A stretch of 64,000 nt of DNA from an uncultured Eubacteriales bacterium. GTDB taxonomy: Bacteria; Bacillota; Clostridia; Oscillospirales; Acutalibacteraceae. This document shows positions 2,080 to 52,676 of this stretch, one piece after another. A model generated the notes under the pieces. That model was not told where the DNA came from. It saw only the letters and a list, made by a program, of their open reading frames with translations, and searched no databases. Every line of letters starts with the position of its first letter. Within the stretch, counting starts at the first letter, position 1. Made by a program: the position numbers and the translations under genes. The stretch is from the NCBI GenBank assembly GCA_900318495.1, contig ONLA01000008.1:33171-97170 (forward strand). Direction: 5' to 3'.

Positions 2080-2874
2080 TTACTTATCTATTCTGCCATA
2101 AAGGCCTGTTTCGCCGCCCTCGTTAAGCGGTACTCTGTCGGGATTAACAGGAGCGGAATTTGATTTGCGTCCGCCGTTATAAGGACGCCTGCCGCCTCTG
2201 CGGTTATTATATCCGCCTCTGCGGTTATGATTATTCTTGCTCTTGGGATCGGGACCGATTACAACATGACGGTTGGCATTTTCACCCTCGCTCCACGAAA
2301 TCGCTCCGTTAACCTTTTGCACAGATGTATGAATAATTCGTCTTTCATAAGGATTCATCGGCTCAAGAGACTGTTTTTTTCCTGTCTTAATTGCCTTAAA
2401 AGCAAGCTTTCTGCCCAGAATCTCAAGGGTTTTTTCCCTTTTGTCACGGTAATTTCCAACGTTTACGGTAACCTTAATATATCCGTCCTCATTGTTATGA
2501 TTTACAACAAGGCTGGTAAGATACTGCAAAGCGTCAAGAGTTTCGCCGCGTCTGCCGATAACAAATCCCTCTTCATCGCCCGAAAGCTCAAAGGTAAGCG
2601 CTCCGTCCTCTGATTTTTTTTCGATAGCGATATCGGGAAGCATCATTTTATCAAGAACATTTCTTAAAAATGTTGCCGCCTTATCTTCCGGAGTTTCCTT
2701 AATAAAAACTCTTACCTTTGCGGGACGACCCCCGAAAAGGCCGAATTTTTTCTTTTCCTCGCGCTGAATAACTTCAAAATCATAATCGTCAGTGTCGGAA
2801 ATGCCAAGCTGATTTTTGGCGTTGTTAAGGGCTTCTTCTACATCATTACCCTCACAAATTGCTTCTCTTAACAT
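2080..2874 (-). CDS. jag: Jag/KhpB, RNA-binding protein with Jag-N, KH and R3H domains
   Basis: A 264-residue cytoplasmic RNA-binding protein. Residues 1-50 form the Jag-N domain, about 75-150 a KH domain with the GRRGETLDALQYLTSLV loop, and about 155-210 an R3H domain (NPYERRIIHT). The partner is usually KhpA, with roles in cell elongation and division in Firmicutes. The gene follows yidC by 19 nt, the conserved order. Unusually, the region after R3H is a roughly 50-residue Gly/Arg/Asn-rich tail with RRGG repeats, not present in the short family members; it may add RNA contacts. The ATG at 2874 has GGAG upstream. Confidence 0.95.
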   Translation of the reverse strand: MLREAICEGNDVEEALNNAKNQLGISDTDDYDFEVIQREEKKKFGLFGGRPAKVRVFIKETPEDKAATFLRNVLDKMMLPDIAIEKKSEDGALTFELSGDEEGFVIGRRGETLDALQYLTSLVVNHNNEDGYIKVTVNVGNYRDKREKTLEILGRKLAFKAIKTGKKQSLEPMNPYERRIIHTSVQKVNGAISWSEGENANRHVVIGPDPKSKNNHNRRGGYNNRRGGRRPYNGGRKSNSAPVNPDRVPLNEGGETGLYGRIDK

Positions 2875-2893
2875 TGTTTTCTCCTAATTTCAA

Positions 2894-3895
2894 TTACTTC
2901 TTTTTCTTCTTTTTAGCTGTATTTGCGTTGGAATTAGCTGTTTTTTCAATTTCATGCGGTGCGTAAATATACGGAACCTTAGCCTCATTTTCAAACATAA
3001 GCGCAACGTGTCTTGCTTCCGCGTTTGCGGTAAGCTTAACCGGACTGAAAAGCTTCGCGATAATAATTGACTGCACAAGACTCAGCAGTGAAGAAATAAT
3101 CCAGTAGAACGCGACCGCGCACGGCACGCTGTAGGCAATCCAAGCCGAAAACAGCGGAAGCGCGTAAAGCATAACCTTCATACAGCCCTGTTGCTGCTGC
3201 ATTTGAGTGTTGACCTTTGTCATAATAAACTGAGATCCTACGTTTGAAAGGAAACAGAAAACAGGGAAAAGAATATAAGGTGAGAACAAACCTAACGAGC
3301 TCGGAATTACAAGCAAATCAACAACTCCGAAAAGGTTAAAGCCGCTTGCAAAATTAAGAATTTTGTCAATTTCCGCCTGCGAGAAAATAGCCTGAATTTC
3401 AGCTGTGTTCGCAACGTGCGGAAAAACCTTAAGCAAAGTAACCTGCTGATAAGTAGCAACCGTTGTTCCCGAATTGTATCCCGGAATACTGTTTACAAAT
3501 GTTAAAGCCTGATTAACGCTTTGTTCGCTGAGATGCAGTGTGTTTGTAAGAGGATATGCAACCGCGTAAAAAATTCCGAGAATTACAATCATCGGAATAA
3601 TAGAGGTAAGACAACCTCCCATAGGCTTTACGTTTTCTTTTTCGTAAAGCTTGTTCATTTCTTCCTGAAGCTTTTGACGGTTATTACCGTACTTTTCTCT
3701 CAGTTCCTTTTGTTTTTTTGCAAGCCTTGAACTGCCTGCCATTGATTTTTGCTGCTTTACCGAAAAAGGCAAGAGCACTGCCTTAACTATAATAGTGAAT
3801 ACAATTATAGCTATTCCGAAGTTTTGAAATACATAATAAGCCGCCCAAAGCACATAGCCCAAAATGCTTCCTAAAAAACCGAAAATACCTAACAT
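2894..3895 (-). CDS. yidC: YidC/OxaA/SpoIIIJ membrane protein insertase
   Basis: A 333-residue polytopic membrane protein of the YidC/Oxa1 family, which inserts and folds membrane proteins alone or with SecYEG. An N-terminal hydrophobic segment (about 18-40) precedes the cytoplasmic helical hairpin rich in KQQKSMAG and KKQKELREKYG, then further membrane helices, and a lysine-rich tail ending in KKKKKK that could contact the ribosome. It lacks the large periplasmic domain of Gram-negative YidC, but the external segment between the second and third helices is longer than in compact Firmicute members. It sits between yidD and jag in the conserved rpmH cluster. Confidence 0.96.
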   Translation of the reverse strand: MLGIFGFLGSILGYVLWAAYYVFQNFGIAIIVFTIIVKAVLLPFSVKQQKSMAGSSRLAKKQKELREKYGNNRQKLQEEMNKLYEKENVKPMGGCLTSIIPMIVILGIFYAVAYPLTNTLHLSEQSVNQALTFVNSIPGYNSGTTVATYQQVTLLKVFPHVANTAEIQAIFSQAEIDKILNFASGFNLFGVVDLLVIPSSLGLFSPYILFPVFCFLSNVGSQFIMTKVNTQMQQQQGCMKVMLYALPLFSAWIAYSVPCAVAFYWIISSLLSLVQSIIIAKLFSPVKLTANAEARHVALMFENEAKVPYIYAPHEIEKTANSNANTAKKKKKK

Positions 3896-48224: not shown

Positions 48225-48632
48225 TTAAGCATTGTGCTTAATGCTGTAAACGGTTTTATCCTTGTCGACCAAGGATATTTCAACGTCGGGAGCTATCCTG
48301 TTTAGCTCAACAAGAAAGCTGTTGCTGTTTCCGCCGTCACGCAAGCCCGTTACAATTTTATGGATATTATTTTCGGTTACAAATTCTGCTGTCGCGTCGG
48401 CAGCGTCAACTCTGAATATGAACGTCATATCGGCGTCGGCTTCCTTTGCGGCAAGATTAAGATACTCAATCTGATCGCTGATTATGGTGTAATCGGCCTC
48501 CGGCCTTATTACCGTTAAAACTCTTAACTCGCAATCCTCTTCTATCGCAAGCTTTTTCGCGGCTTCAATCACACGGTCGCAATCATATTGGTTGCTTACA
48601 CAGGCAAGCACCGACGGCTTTGAACTGAACAT
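48225..48632 (-). CDS. Universal-stress-protein-like domain protein
   Basis: A 135-residue cytoplasmic protein with the alternating strand-helix pattern of the Usp fold: SVLACVSNQYDCDRVIEAAKKLA, ELRVLTVIRP, ADMTFIFRVDAADATAEFVTENNI and KIVTGLRDGGNSNSFLVEL. It resembles the Usp-like region next to the KdpD sensor domain, but no Kdp genes are here. The GxxGxGNS-type ATP motif is only partly kept (GLRDGGNSNS), so nucleotide binding is uncertain. AAGGAGGTG lies before the ATG. It is monocistronic. Confidence 0.7.
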   Translation of the reverse strand: MFSSKPSVLACVSNQYDCDRVIEAAKKLAIEEDCELRVLTVIRPEADYTIISDQIEYLNLAAKEADADMTFIFRVDAADATAEFVTENNIHKIVTGLRDGGNSNSFLVELNRIAPDVEISLVDKDKTVYSIKHNA

Positions 48633-48838
48633 CGGTTTGCACCTCCTTCCTTGACTGTGGCTATATAATACCCCCTGATTTTGAAAAACATATATCGGTA
48701 TTGTGAATTTATTGTGAAATTTAAAAAAATTAACGTAATATTTTTAAAAATCGCTTGTGAGTATTCAAGAGTAAAACTGAGATTTTAAAAGAATACAGGA
48801 GATTTTACCGAGATAAATTAAAAATTTTCAAAAAAGTG

Positions 48839-48867
48839 TTGACAACACGGTTTCTGTGTATTATAAT
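48839..48867 (+). promoter_or_regulatory. Sigma-A promoter for rplM-rpsI
   Basis: TTGACA and TATAAT are exactly 17 bases apart, a full consensus match, as expected for a ribosomal protein operon. Confidence 0.92.
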
Positions 48868-48901
48868 CATAAAGCACGACAAATGAACAGGAGGAATTAC
48901 T

Positions 48902-49330
48902 ATGTCAACATATTTAGCTAAGCCGACCGAAGTTGAGCGCAGCTGGTACGTAATTGATGCCGCCGGCAAACCCCTCGGCCGTGTTGCGGCTCAGGCGGCT
49001 GCATTGCTCAGAGGCAAGCATAAGCCCACATTTACTCCGCACGTAGACTGCGGCGACCACGTAATCATTATTAACTGCAAGGACGCTGTTCTTACAGGCA
49101 ACAAGCTTACACAGAAAAAGTGGCAGCGCCACACAGGCTACATCGGCCACTTAAAGGAAACACGTTATGACACTCTTATGGCAACAAAGCCCGCTAAGGC
49201 TATGGAGCTTGCCGTTAAGGGTATGCTTCCCAAGAACACTCTCGGCAGAAACGCACTTTTAAGACTCAGACTCTTTGAGGGTGCGGAACACAATCATCAG
49301 GCTCAGAAGCCTCAGATGCTTGAAGCTTAA
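48902..49330 (+). CDS. rplM: 50S ribosomal protein L13
   Basis: A 142-residue ribosomal protein. Family segments are [40 protein letters not shown] and [20 protein letters not shown] with the ending [11 protein letters not shown]. It binds 23S rRNA early in 50S assembly. AGGAGG lies before the ATG. It is followed after 17 nt by rpsI, the universal order. The sequence shows nothing unusual. Confidence 0.99.
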
Positions 49331-49347
49331 GAAGGAGGCAAAACAGT

Positions 49348-49791
49348 ATGTACGATAAGACACCTTATTTTTACGGTACAGGCAGAAGAAAAAGCTCTGT
49401 TGCAAGAGTAAGACTTTACCAGGGTACAGGCAAAATCACAATCAACGACCGTGACATCGACGATTATTTCGGTCTTGAAACTCTCAAGCTCATTGTAAGA
49501 CAGCCTCTGGCTCTTACCGAAACCGACGAAAAGTTCGACGTTGTATGCCGTGTTTCAGGCGGCGGCGTTACCGGTCAGGCGGGCGCAATCCGTCACGGTA
49601 TCTCCAGAGCTTTGCTCCAGTATGACACCGAAAACCTTCGCGGCAAGCTCAAGAAGGCAGGCTTCCTTACCCGTGACCCGAGAATGAAAGAGCGTAAGAA
49701 GTACGGTCTTAAGGGCGCACGCAGAGCACCGCAGTTCTCTGGGGAGCCTTGTTTTACTTCCGGTATTTTTGATATATCATATTGTTGCTGA
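49348..49791 (+). CDS. rpsI: 30S ribosomal protein S9 with a replaced C-terminal tail
   Basis: The first 131 residues are standard S9: [40 protein letters not shown] and [20 protein letters not shown], then QFS. Nearly all bacterial S9 proteins then end in Lys-Arg; here the frame continues with [16 protein letters not shown] before TGA. The Lys-Arg tail normally reaches the anticodon stem of P-site tRNA. The divergence point is at about 49740, and a restriction-modification pair follows, so the native 3' end appears displaced by insertion. Whether an intact second copy exists elsewhere cannot be seen. GGAGG lies before the ATG. Confidence 0.95.
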
Positions 49792-49828
49792 ACTTATCAA
49801 GAAAATCTAACGAAATCGTGAGATAGTC

Positions 49829-49857
49829 TTGAAAAAAATAACTATTAATGCTATAAT
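49829..49857 (+). promoter_or_regulatory. Sigma-A promoter of the restriction-modification genes
   Basis: TTGAAA and TATAAT are 17 bases apart, 38 bases before the methyltransferase start codon. Confidence 0.82.
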
Positions 49858-49895
49858 TGGATAAACCAGAATTAACCAAGATGTGAGGTGTTGTT

Positions 49896-51116
49896 ATGGC
49901 TGTTTGCTATAATAACTTATGGAAACTGTTAATAGACAGGAACATGAATAAAACCGACCTGAAAGAGGCGGCGGGTATTAGCTTTAATGTTATGGCTCGA
50001 ATGGGAAAAAACGAAACAATCTCTTTTGACAGCATTGAAAAAATCTGCACGGTGCTTGATTGTAATATCGGTGATATTATTGAGATTGTCAAGCCTAAAA
50101 AGGAACTCAAAAAACCGAAAACCATAGAATTATTCGCCGGCGCAGGCGGATTGGCACTTGGTATTGAACGTGCCGGATTTGATACGATTGGATTAATTGA
50201 GTTTGACAAGGATGCTTCTGATACATTAAGAACCAACAGGCCTGAATGGCGCGTCATTAACGATGATATTGCCAATATATCGTGTTTAGATTTGAAGGAG
50301 TATTTTAACCTTAAAGAAAGTGAACTCGATTTGTTATCGGGCGGCGCTCCCTGTCAGAGTTTTTCTTATGCAGGAAAACGCTTGGGATTGGAGGATGCAC
50401 GCGGTACATTGTTCTATCATTACGCTAAGTTTTTAGAGCAGCTGCAACCTAAAATGTTTCTGTTTGAAAATGTAAGAGGTTTGCTTACTCACGATAAAGG
50501 GCGTACATATAAAACGATTACCGATATTTTTGAAAGCACAGGATATACCATCCAAAGGAAAGTACTGAACGCGTGGGACTACGGTGTTGCTCAAAAAAGA
50601 GAACGTTTAATTACCATAGGCATCCGAAATGATTTGGTCAGTAAAATCCATTTTGAATTTCCGAAGCCGCATGACTATAAGCCGGTTTTAAGGGATATTT
50701 TGTTAGATTGCCCCGAGAGTGAGGGTACACCTTATTCGGAATATAAGCGTAAAATATTTGAACTTGTCCCGCCCGGCGGATATTGGAGAGATATTCCCGA
50801 GGATATAGCGAAAGAGTACATGAAAAGCTGCTGGTATATGGAAGGCGGCAGAACAGGTATTCTTCGCAGGCTGAGCCTTGATGAGCCGTCGCTTGCGGTT
50901 CTTACTTCGCCAAGTCAAAAACAGACAGACAGGTGTCATCCGTTAGAAGCACGTCCCTTTACAATTCGGGAAAACGCCCGCTGCCAAAGCTTTCCGGATG
51001 AATGGGTATTCAAGGGAAGTATCGGTTCACAATATAAACAAGTCGGTAACGCTGTACCTGTCAATTTGGCTTACGATATAGCTAAAGAAATAAAGAAAGC
51101 TCTGGAGGAAGTATAA
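49896..51116 (+). CDS. DNA (cytosine-5) methyltransferase with N-terminal helix-turn-helix
   Basis: A 406-residue protein. Residues 1-65 form a Cro/Xre-like helix-turn-helix (KTDLKEAAGISFNVMARMGK, SIEKICTVLDCNIGDII). The C5-methyltransferase motifs follow in order: I ELFAGAGGLALGIERAGF, IV GGAPCQSFSYAGKR with catalytic Cys153, VI LFENVRGL, VIII QKRERLITIG and X GNAVPVNLAY. The fused N-terminal domain is likely to repress its own promoter, a known control in some type II systems. GAGGTG lies before the ATG. The next gene overlaps by one base and is the cognate endonuclease. Confidence 0.95.
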   Translation: MAVCYNNLWKLLIDRNMNKTDLKEAAGISFNVMARMGKNETISFDSIEKICTVLDCNIGDIIEIVKPKKELKKPKTIELFAGAGGLALGIERAGFDTIGLIEFDKDASDTLRTNRPEWRVINDDIANISCLDLKEYFNLKESELDLLSGGAPCQSFSYAGKRLGLEDARGTLFYHYAKFLEQLQPKMFLFENVRGLLTHDKGRTYKTITDIFESTGYTIQRKVLNAWDYGVAQKRERLITIGIRNDLVSKIHFEFPKPHDYKPVLRDILLDCPESEGTPYSEYKRKIFELVPPGGYWRDIPEDIAKEYMKSCWYMEGGRTGILRRLSLDEPSLAVLTSPSQKQTDRCHPLEARPFTIRENARCQSFPDEWVFKGSIGSQYKQVGNAVPVNLAYDIAKEIKKALEEV

Positions 51117-51925
51117 TGTGGAATCTGAGTTTTATAAGTGAGGAAGATTTTACAAATCACGTCAAAGCAACTATTGGAAAATATGGCGAAAAACTCGAAT
51201 CCTTTGATTTAAAGCGGTTCAATAAAAATATCATTGACCCCATAAAGCTGATTTTTGATAAAACCGTTTATCAGGCGTCGTGGGAGCAAATCGTCGGTAA
51301 TGAGATTTTCAGACAAAGAGATAAATCCAACAACAATGATATCGGATATTTTCATCAGCGTATTTTCAACTACTTTGATAAATGCCATGTGCCCGATAAC
51401 GGCAAAGAAGGCGGCTGGGATGTAATATATGAGAATCCCGGCGGTATCACCTTGCCGGATTGTAGCGTTGTTCACAAGGTTTATGTCGAAATGAAAAATA
51501 AACACAACACGATGAACTCAGCATCAGCCGGAAAGACTTTTATCAAAATGCAACACCAGATACTAAACGATGATGATTGCGCTTGCTTTTTGGTAGAAGC
51601 CATTGCACAACGTTCTCAAAATATTAAATGGGAAACCACCGTTGATAAGAGAAAGGTTGGGCATAAACTGATACGCAGAGTAAGCATTGACCAATTTTAC
51701 GCTTTAGTCACAGGGCAAGAGGATGCGTTTTATCAGATGTGCATGGTGTTACCTTCGGTAATTGAAAAGGCGGTTAAGGACTTGGAAGGCAGTGTCGTTC
51801 CGCACGATACGGTTACAGATGAGTTAAAAAAGCTTGCGAGGGAGCAGAGTATTGAATCCGAGGATTTGGCTATTGCTATGGCGACGTATATGCTTGGATT
51901 TGGAAGCTACAAGGGCTTTGTGTGA
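51116..51925 (+). CDS. Type II restriction endonuclease, Eco47II/Sau96I-like
   Basis: A 269-residue endonuclease. The candidate PD-(D/E)xK core is Asp102 in GGWDVIYENPGG followed by Glu125 and Lys127 in VYVEMKNKHNTMN. The stretch KHNTMNSASAGKTFIKMQHQIL matches my recollection of the Eco47II family, whose members cut GGNCC; the specificity is therefore inferred. GGAGG lies before the ATG, which overlaps the methyltransferase stop codon (TAATG). It cuts DNA not protected by the partner. A strong hairpin follows. Confidence 0.85.
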   Translation: MWNLSFISEEDFTNHVKATIGKYGEKLESFDLKRFNKNIIDPIKLIFDKTVYQASWEQIVGNEIFRQRDKSNNNDIGYFHQRIFNYFDKCHVPDNGKEGGWDVIYENPGGITLPDCSVVHKVYVEMKNKHNTMNSASAGKTFIKMQHQILNDDDCACFLVEAIAQRSQNIKWETTVDKRKVGHKLIRRVSIDQFYALVTGQEDAFYQMCMVLPSVIEKAVKDLEGSVVPHDTVTDELKKLAREQSIESEDLAIAMATYMLGFGSYKGFV

Positions 51926-51950
51926 TTTTGCTGCAAAAACACTTGCATAA

Positions 51951-51991
51951 AAAAGAGGATACGATTCAACAAAAAAGAATCGTATCCTCTT
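51951..51991 (+). terminator. Terminator after the restriction-modification pair
   Basis: AAAGAGGATACGATTC and GAATCGTATCCTCTTT form a perfect 16-bp stem with a 9-base A-rich loop. It may be the original rpsI operon terminator or belong to the insert. Confidence 0.88.
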
Positions 51992-52025
51992 TATCTTGCG
52001 ATAAATAATTACAAATAAAGCAAAC

Positions 52026-52676
52026 TTACAAATCCTTTAAAAATTCAATGCTTTCGTCGAGAGTGTTGCAAAGCTTATCAATCATCGGAAGGATTTCGGG
52101 TGTGGGCTGAAGGTAGTCGGGCACCATTATTGTAATCATTCCTGCCGAATGGGCGGACTGAACTCCGGTAAGGCTGTCCTCGTACGCCGCGCAGTCTGAC
52201 GGTTCAAGCCCGAGCTTTTGGGCGGCGGTCAGGAAAACCTCGGGGTGGGGCTTGCCGTTCTTTACGTCGTTGCCGCAGACAAGCTCGTCGAAGTAATCCA
52301 AAACCCTGATTGATTTTAAATCGAGCGTTGCGGTTTCGCGTGAAGTTGAGGTTGCAAGCGCGATTTTAACTCCGTTTTCCTTTAAAAAGTCAAGCAGCTC
52401 ATAAAGTCCCGGCTTTGCCGGAACGCCTGTTGTTTTCAATCGTTCCAGATACATATCGTGGCTTTTGTCAGCAAAATCCCAATACGGAAACTCCTCGCCG
52501 TATAGCGACTTATATATTTTTTCAACCTCGGTTTTGCGTTTGCCGAGGGTTTTTTTGTAAATATCGAGGCTGTACGGGTATCCGTTTTCCTTCATCATTT
52601 TGCTCCAGTTTTCAAAGACAATCTTTTCGCTGTCTATCATCAGACCATCCATATCGAGCACAGCGCCTTTAATCAT
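52026..52676 (-). CDS. HAD hydrolase, beta-phosphoglucomutase-like
   Basis: A 216-residue HAD class I protein with a helical C1 cap. Motif I is LDMDGLMIDSEK, which keeps the second Asp used for acid-base catalysis; motif II is LATSTSRE; motif III GKPHPEVFL; motif IV AYEDSLTGVQSAHSAG. This pattern fits beta-phosphoglucomutases and related sugar phosphatases. It lies downstream of a GH13 gene on the same strand but after a terminator, so a shared role in maltodextrin use is only suggestive. GGAGG lies before the ATG. Confidence 0.88.
   Translation of the reverse strand: MIKGAVLDMDGLMIDSEKIVFENWSKMMKENGYPYSLDIYKKTLGKRKTEVEKIYKSLYGEEFPYWDFADKSHDMYLERLKTTGVPAKPGLYELLDFLKENGVKIALATSTSRETATLDLKSIRVLDYFDELVCGNDVKNGKPHPEVFLTAAQKLGLEPSDCAAYEDSLTGVQSAHSAGMITIMVPDYLQPTPEILPMIDKLCNTLDESIEFLKDL

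Follow-up and report, generated by a model that had tools for sequence, protein, structure and literature searches.

The rpsI gene of an uncultured Eubacteriales bacterium, which codes for ribosomal protein S9, ends in an abnormal tail and is directly followed by a type II restriction-modification (R-M) pair, raising the question of how the usual Lys-Arg end was lost and whether the R-M pair was responsible for it. The locus lies in a window of 64,000 nucleotides (the whole stretch of DNA analyzed) on contig C39 of a genome, hereafter G000, whose assembly comprises 1.88 Mb in 81 contigs and is 86.4% complete with 1.2% contamination. The rpsI open reading frame (49348-49791, plus strand) encodes 147 amino acids and comprises a canonical part, a tail and a TGA stop codon. 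The canonical part (49348..49740, plus strand), ending in RRAPQFS, preserved the S9 fold profile, covering positions 1-119 of the 121 of PF00380 (6.4e-50) and matching NF001099 (9.1e-56), and shared 96-99% identity with the S9 proteins of the closest relatives. Immediately after the Ser131 codon (49738-49740), an unrelated tail of 16 residues, coded by 49741-49788 and closed by TGA (tail with stop, 49741..49791, plus strand), takes the place of Lys-Arg-stop, so that the open reading frame bore out the earlier note, which had described an S9 canonical up to APQFS and then an odd 16-residue tail instead of Lys-Arg. The rplM gene, coding for L13, is the first of the operon (48902..49330, plus strand) and has homologues preceding rpsI in the relatives; the named record best matching this L13 belonged to the uncultured Ruminococcus sp. 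assembly RUG11254, with 94% identity.

A normal S9 end was searched for beyond this gene. The search of the whole G000 assembly with PF00380 revealed one S9 match, so that the intact second copy that would have refuted the earlier note was not found, and the pattern of the expected normal rpsI end, TTCWSNAARMGNTAA, had no exact match anywhere in the assembly. In the window, CAGTTCTCNAAGAGATAA was absent even with up to 3 mismatches allowed, and since the expected end was not present there, read-through or recoding to reach Lys-Arg was rejected. A co-adapted S13 tail was also rejected, as the S13 of G000 ends in RKTMANKKK and looks ordinary. A second, normal rpsI carried by the organism and missing from the assembly is very improbable: the assembly is 86% complete, and two full-length S9 genes each were found in G523 and G558, but these were 2 of the 132 genus genomes with an S9 match, full double copies being rare in the genus, and 1.88 Mb held no further S9 or normal end. 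If real, the change would be a natural one in which the sole rpsI found in the assembly loses Lys-Arg and gains 16 unrelated residues.

The rarity of such an end was assessed among the relatives. Of the rpsI ends in the fetched loci, window included, 129 distinct ones were readable right through; 127 encoded SKR-stop, and the two exceptions were the window and G548, whose S9 ends in STSK. Similarly, a genus-wide S9 search of 161 genomes gave a match in 132 of them and 135 matches altogether, 127 of which aligned to the last residue. Of the eight that fell short, those of G000 and G548 both ended at residue 131, and the other six (G573, G570, G551, G018, G555 and G541) ended earlier; the short matches of G573 and G570 corresponded to contig ends and those of G551 and G018 to genes starting at contig base 3. 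In a second S9 survey, all the matches listed except that of G000 reached residue 133.

The sequence that follows the Ser131 codon points to the origin of the tail. In many relatives, the typical order after the S9 body is Lys-Arg, a stop codon, a short spacer and a terminator hairpin. In the window, the sequence from 49741 onward, GGGGAGCCTTGTTTT, corresponds to the 3′ arm and T-tract of an rpsI-type terminator hairpin (remnant, 49741..49755, plus strand), joined to the gene at TTCTC/TGGGGAGCC (junction, 49738..49741, placed to within a base). This arm was matched at 13 or more of its 15 bases by nine of the 123 other distinct 3′ regions (124 with the window counted in), and in all nine it lies at a distance of 45-51 bases, counted from where the Ser131 codon starts, versus 3 bases in the window, indicating the loss of ~42-48 bases relative to these relatives. 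When the arm was shuffled (n = 200), 195 of the shuffles matched zero relatives and the best one matched three. The exact 16-mer GGGGAGCCTTGTTTTA occurred a single time across the 161 genus genomes, in the window. The motif GGGRAGCCTTGTTTY was present in 16 of the 161 genomes, G000 included, and its sites in the other 15 corresponded to the rpsI terminator in seven, to displaced or tandem copies of the rpsI end in four and to other places in four; the arm motif is thus not exclusive to rpsI and could in principle derive from another place.

Based on this comparison of sequences, the tail very probably arose by a deletion of ~42-48 bases at the 3′ end of rpsI and not by R-M replacement, a grading that refers to how the sequence is read and is separate from the presence of the deletion in cells. 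The deletion would begin within the Ser131 codon and end immediately ahead of the 3′ arm of the terminator hairpin, so that Lys-Arg, stop codon, spacer and first hairpin arm were all lost. With the stop codon removed, the frame stays open through the surviving arm and closes at the next TGA, 16 codons on. The sequence separating the terminator remnant from the R-M block (49756..49795, plus strand) codes the later part of the tail; no convincing match to it was found in the fetched loci. The deletion would also have left the rpsI operon without a strong terminator. In fact, the normal terminators of two relatives folded strongly (z -3.9 and -3.0), whereas the window remnant folded like its shuffles (z -0.4), a weak interrupted hairpin before the T-tract being still formable, and a terminator scan detected none at the remnant. 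Since the remnant lacks a fold beyond that of shuffles and the scan detected no terminator there, rpsI transcripts may run on into the R-M genes.

The R-M pair begins further downstream. The earlier note placed a type II pair beside rpsI, and this was upheld by matches of its two genes, a C5 cytosine methyltransferase with an N-terminal Cro/C1-type HTH domain (49896..51116, plus strand; PF00145, 4.6e-85; PF13443, 3.2e-19) and an Eco47II-family restriction endonuclease (51116..51925, plus strand; PF09553, 2.9e-88; PADLOC REase_II), which overlap by one base and were both assigned to type II by PADLOC. They lie in a block common to other species (49796..51919, plus strand), defined by DNA alignments of ~83% identity with G017 (49796-51919) and G006 (49795-51903), which stop there, and by weaker ones with G120 and G152. 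The start of this block (~49796) falls 55 bases beyond the deletion junction. The earlier note had proposed that the R-M pair replaced the end of rpsI and that, by spoiling a vital gene, it became hard to lose. The first proposal is not supported, given the position of the terminator arm of rpsI itself (49741-49755), which lies before the R-M block, and the second is left without its basis, since the loss in rpsI would be a deletion separate from the R-M pair. It is accordingly very improbable, though slightly less so than a missing second rpsI, that the insertion of the R-M pair itself replaced the rpsI end. The pair does lie directly downstream, and the stretch 49756-49795 has no traced source, so the left end of the insert is not fixed; against this reading stand the terminator arm interposed between S9 and the R-M block, the block edge at ~49796 in two other species (G017 and G006), and, in G006, G120 and G242, the seemingly intact housekeeping genes beside which R-M units of this family are found.

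These other genomes also give the context of the pair. A search of 100 genus genomes with the methyltransferase gave close homologues in G017 (97%), G006 (96%) and G120 (86%). In G006, the R-M pair lies after a GMP synthase gene and, in G120, after a nicotinate phosphoribosyltransferase gene, both Pfam-backed, and in G017 genes for MobA/MobL and for an AAA ATPase lie nearby. A more distant Eco47II-type pair was observed in G242 (L153, 66-2256), 60 bases after the gene of ribosomal protein L20. For the products of the GMP synthase (G006) and L20 (G242) genes, the Pfam match extended as far as the C-terminus or close to it, and the G242 case indicates that such R-M pairs can adjoin ribosomal genes without evident change there. 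Since the block occurs in unrelated places in other species, the R-M pair of the window looks like an ordinary Eco47II-like unit that was acquired separately, and it lies further downstream than the deletion. A target-site duplication around it was discarded, as the best direct repeat (49783-49800/52064-52081, 15 of 18 bases) resembled the chance pairs listed alongside.

Concerning its expression, a promoter-like site, TTGAAA-17-TATAAT, preserving 11 of the 12 consensus bases, was found at 49829..49857 (plus strand). It starts 38 bases after the new stop codon, in agreement with the methyltransferase promoter that the earlier note had located about 40 bp after it, and it is well placed, such sites being no commoner in the region than expected by chance. 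It is preceded by an inverted repeat, TCTAACGAAATCGTGAGA, a predicted and probable operator (49806..49823, plus strand) conserved before the R-M promoter, which was identical in G017 and G120 and differed at one position in G006 and at two in G152. The HTH domain, together with this inverted repeat before the promoter, suggests autoregulation, i.e., the HTH-methyltransferase probably controls its own promoter via 49806-49823. The pair resembles Eco47II-type systems in that both enzymes match (PF09553 and C5 methyltransferase) and in being found in other genera of the family; it differs in the N-terminal HTH of the methyltransferase and in the conserved inverted repeat. Eco47II recognises GGNCC. 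This sequence occurred 28 times in the window versus 55.8 expected, ~twofold fewer, a deficit that says little on R-M recognition because the avoidance of GGCC and GATC was stronger. Under a maximal-order Markov model, GGCC (22 versus 182 expected) and GATC (36 versus 142) were strongly avoided in the window (1-64000). The search of the endonuclease against solved structures gave no match at E up to 1.

On the 3′ side of the R-M pair, a strong hairpin (51952..51992; -28 kcal/mol, z -7.6) separates convergent genes, the next one coding for a HAD-family hydrolase (52026..52676, minus strand; PF13419, 1.7e-34). When the window region 48225-52676 was compared with L181 (G021) and L182 (G027), the block formed by a Usp-like gene, rplM and rpsI proved to have the opposite orientation to the HAD gene in these two relatives, i.e., to be inverted there. 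Among the 22 loci compared, none had the HAD gene adjoining the 3′ end of rpsI.

The position of the deletion gains meaning from what occurs at the 3′ end of rpsI in the rest of the genus. This side of the gene is variable, since no protein family occurred in more than three of the 33 genus stretches that had at least 1,900 bases after rpsI, up to 3 open reading frames being compared in each. Integration by streptococcal integrative and conjugative elements (ICEs) at the rpsI 3′ end is described in a published study (PMC4701971). The genus relatives are alike in presenting tyrosine integrases and duplicated rpsI ends. For example, G092 and G100 carry, kilobases downstream, a second rpsI end with terminator, with a tyrosine integrase gene (PF00589) within ~150 bases before the copy, and in G566 an integrase gene lies 211 bases after rpsI. 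Integrase genes homologous to these three were found on the downstream side in 12 distinct rpsI regions (13 loci); in three of the regions (L043, L089 and L107) the matches were weak or partial, and SKR was retained in all 13 loci. An extra copy of the rpsI end was detected in 13 of 111 downstream stretches versus one match in a 448 kb reversed-sequence control; on inspection, one of the 13 (L237) was not rpsI-end-like, and some distant ones may be due to chance. In this genus, the rpsI 3′ end is a hot spot of integration and rearrangement, and it is apparently an attachment site for at least three different tyrosine integrases, observed in L242 (G092:C3), L256 (G100:C32) and L240 (G566:C1).

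Downstream of rpsI, short non-coding units, mostly of ~155 bases, were also observed in tandem arrangement; a copy of the rpsI end borders each of them, and palindromic repeats are present in the majority. The second rpsI end was placed 154-186 bases past the first in L119, L228, L215, L232, L034 and L039, and two tandem units followed rpsI in succession in L257. Of 53 genus regions, 12 had a GTCCTCG repeat no more than 400 bases past rpsI.

The deletion of the window begins inside this repeated rpsI core, at TTCTC, and its start would fall within the core that integrating elements duplicate. The window differs from the rpsI ICEs in that no integrase or duplicated end was found and the S9 end was not restored: searches with the three rpsI-site integrases gave a best E of 0.066, none of the 10 window proteins scanned was an integrase, and a duplicated rpsI 3′ end was found neither in the window nor in the G000 assembly (86% complete). 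With no integrase and no second rpsI end in the window, the link between deletion and integration is positional, and it is from this position that faulty recombination or repair at the rpsI hot spot would be the likeliest natural cause.

The other exception to SKR-stop affects the same point of the gene. In L222 (G548:C233), rpsI is located at 2625-3029 on the minus strand and its S9 ends in STSK, without Lys-Arg. Relative to the integrase elements of G114 and G566, G548 has lost 104 bases from the Ser131 codon onward, and the STSK end results from the sequence located 104 bases further downstream in those elements being joined directly to the Ser131 codon; the joined stretch was identical to that of G114 in 100 of 100 bases. 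In G548 (85% complete, 6% contamination, 280 contigs), a different species, either a further deletion has occurred with its left end at the same point, or the assembly has erred again in a similar way.

As to whether the deletion is present in the cells or is a product of the assembly, the odds are roughly even, and an assembly fault of the kind that the earlier note had named as a refutation stays a serious candidate. There is an even chance that the cells carry an SKR-ending rpsI with its full terminator, the R-M pair lying truly downstream, and that the assembly of mixed-population reads dropped the bases at this tangled site. The terminal arginine is called systematic in one source (PMC7531240) and invariably conserved, in all kingdoms, in another (PMC6344880), and both exceptions to SKR come from medium-quality assemblies (G000, 86% complete; G548, 85%). 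Moreover, in 14 of 108 loci the contig stopped no more than 300 bases past rpsI, versus 3 of 108 with a contig end at that distance before rplM (Fisher p 0.0096); the comparison was restricted to 0-300 bases on either side, a bin at 1050 bases upstream being an artefact of flank length. The repeats of the rpsI end may account for these breaks. In G573, the contig breaks off at TTCTC, exactly where the window junction lies. Against an artefact, no long repeat occurs at the junction to make an assembler skip exactly these bases, the contig continues for kilobases with ordinary genes on both sides, and S9 tail deletions are survivable in E. coli, to judge from a review (PMC7949028). The gene order around the junction is also plausible, a HAD gene lying near rplM-rpsI in G021 and G027, and for this reason, though the relation there is inverted, a random contig chimera is not favoured.

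The most far-reaching reading is tentative and has the lesser share of probability: the deletion would be real and fixed, leaving the bacterium's only S9 without the universal P-site arginine, recombination at the rpsI attachment site would occasionally misfire, cutting from the core into the following DNA, and G548 would be an independent case. Taking the evidence as a whole, the tail was confirmed in the assembled sequence, and its mechanism moves from R-M replacement to what is, with high probability as the sequence reads, a small deletion at an integration hot spot. The original papers on E. coli S9 tail deletions are reportedly those of Hoang and Arora. The window resembles the known uS9 tail mutants, those of E. 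coli (PMC7949028) and the truncations and extensions of yeast (PMC6344880), in its standard S9 body and in that the last residues are lost or extended; compared with these laboratory mutants, the change, if real, is natural. In the same sources, E. coli with the S9 tail deleted is treated as a working strain (PMC7949028), and in yeast a single extra arginine at the end of uS9 already slows growth (PMC6344880).

If the deletion is an assembly error, rpsI 3′ ends would be unreliable in the metagenome assemblies of this group. If it exists in living cells, their S9 lacks the P-site arginine, and a lower translation fidelity would be expected from the published mutants. A wild bacterium without the terminal arginine would then constitute a natural test of the role of the S9 tail, with ribosome variation tied to mobile-element integration at rpsI, and, should the most far-reaching reading be true, ribosomal genes that serve as integration hot spots would give rise to natural variants of the ribosome.
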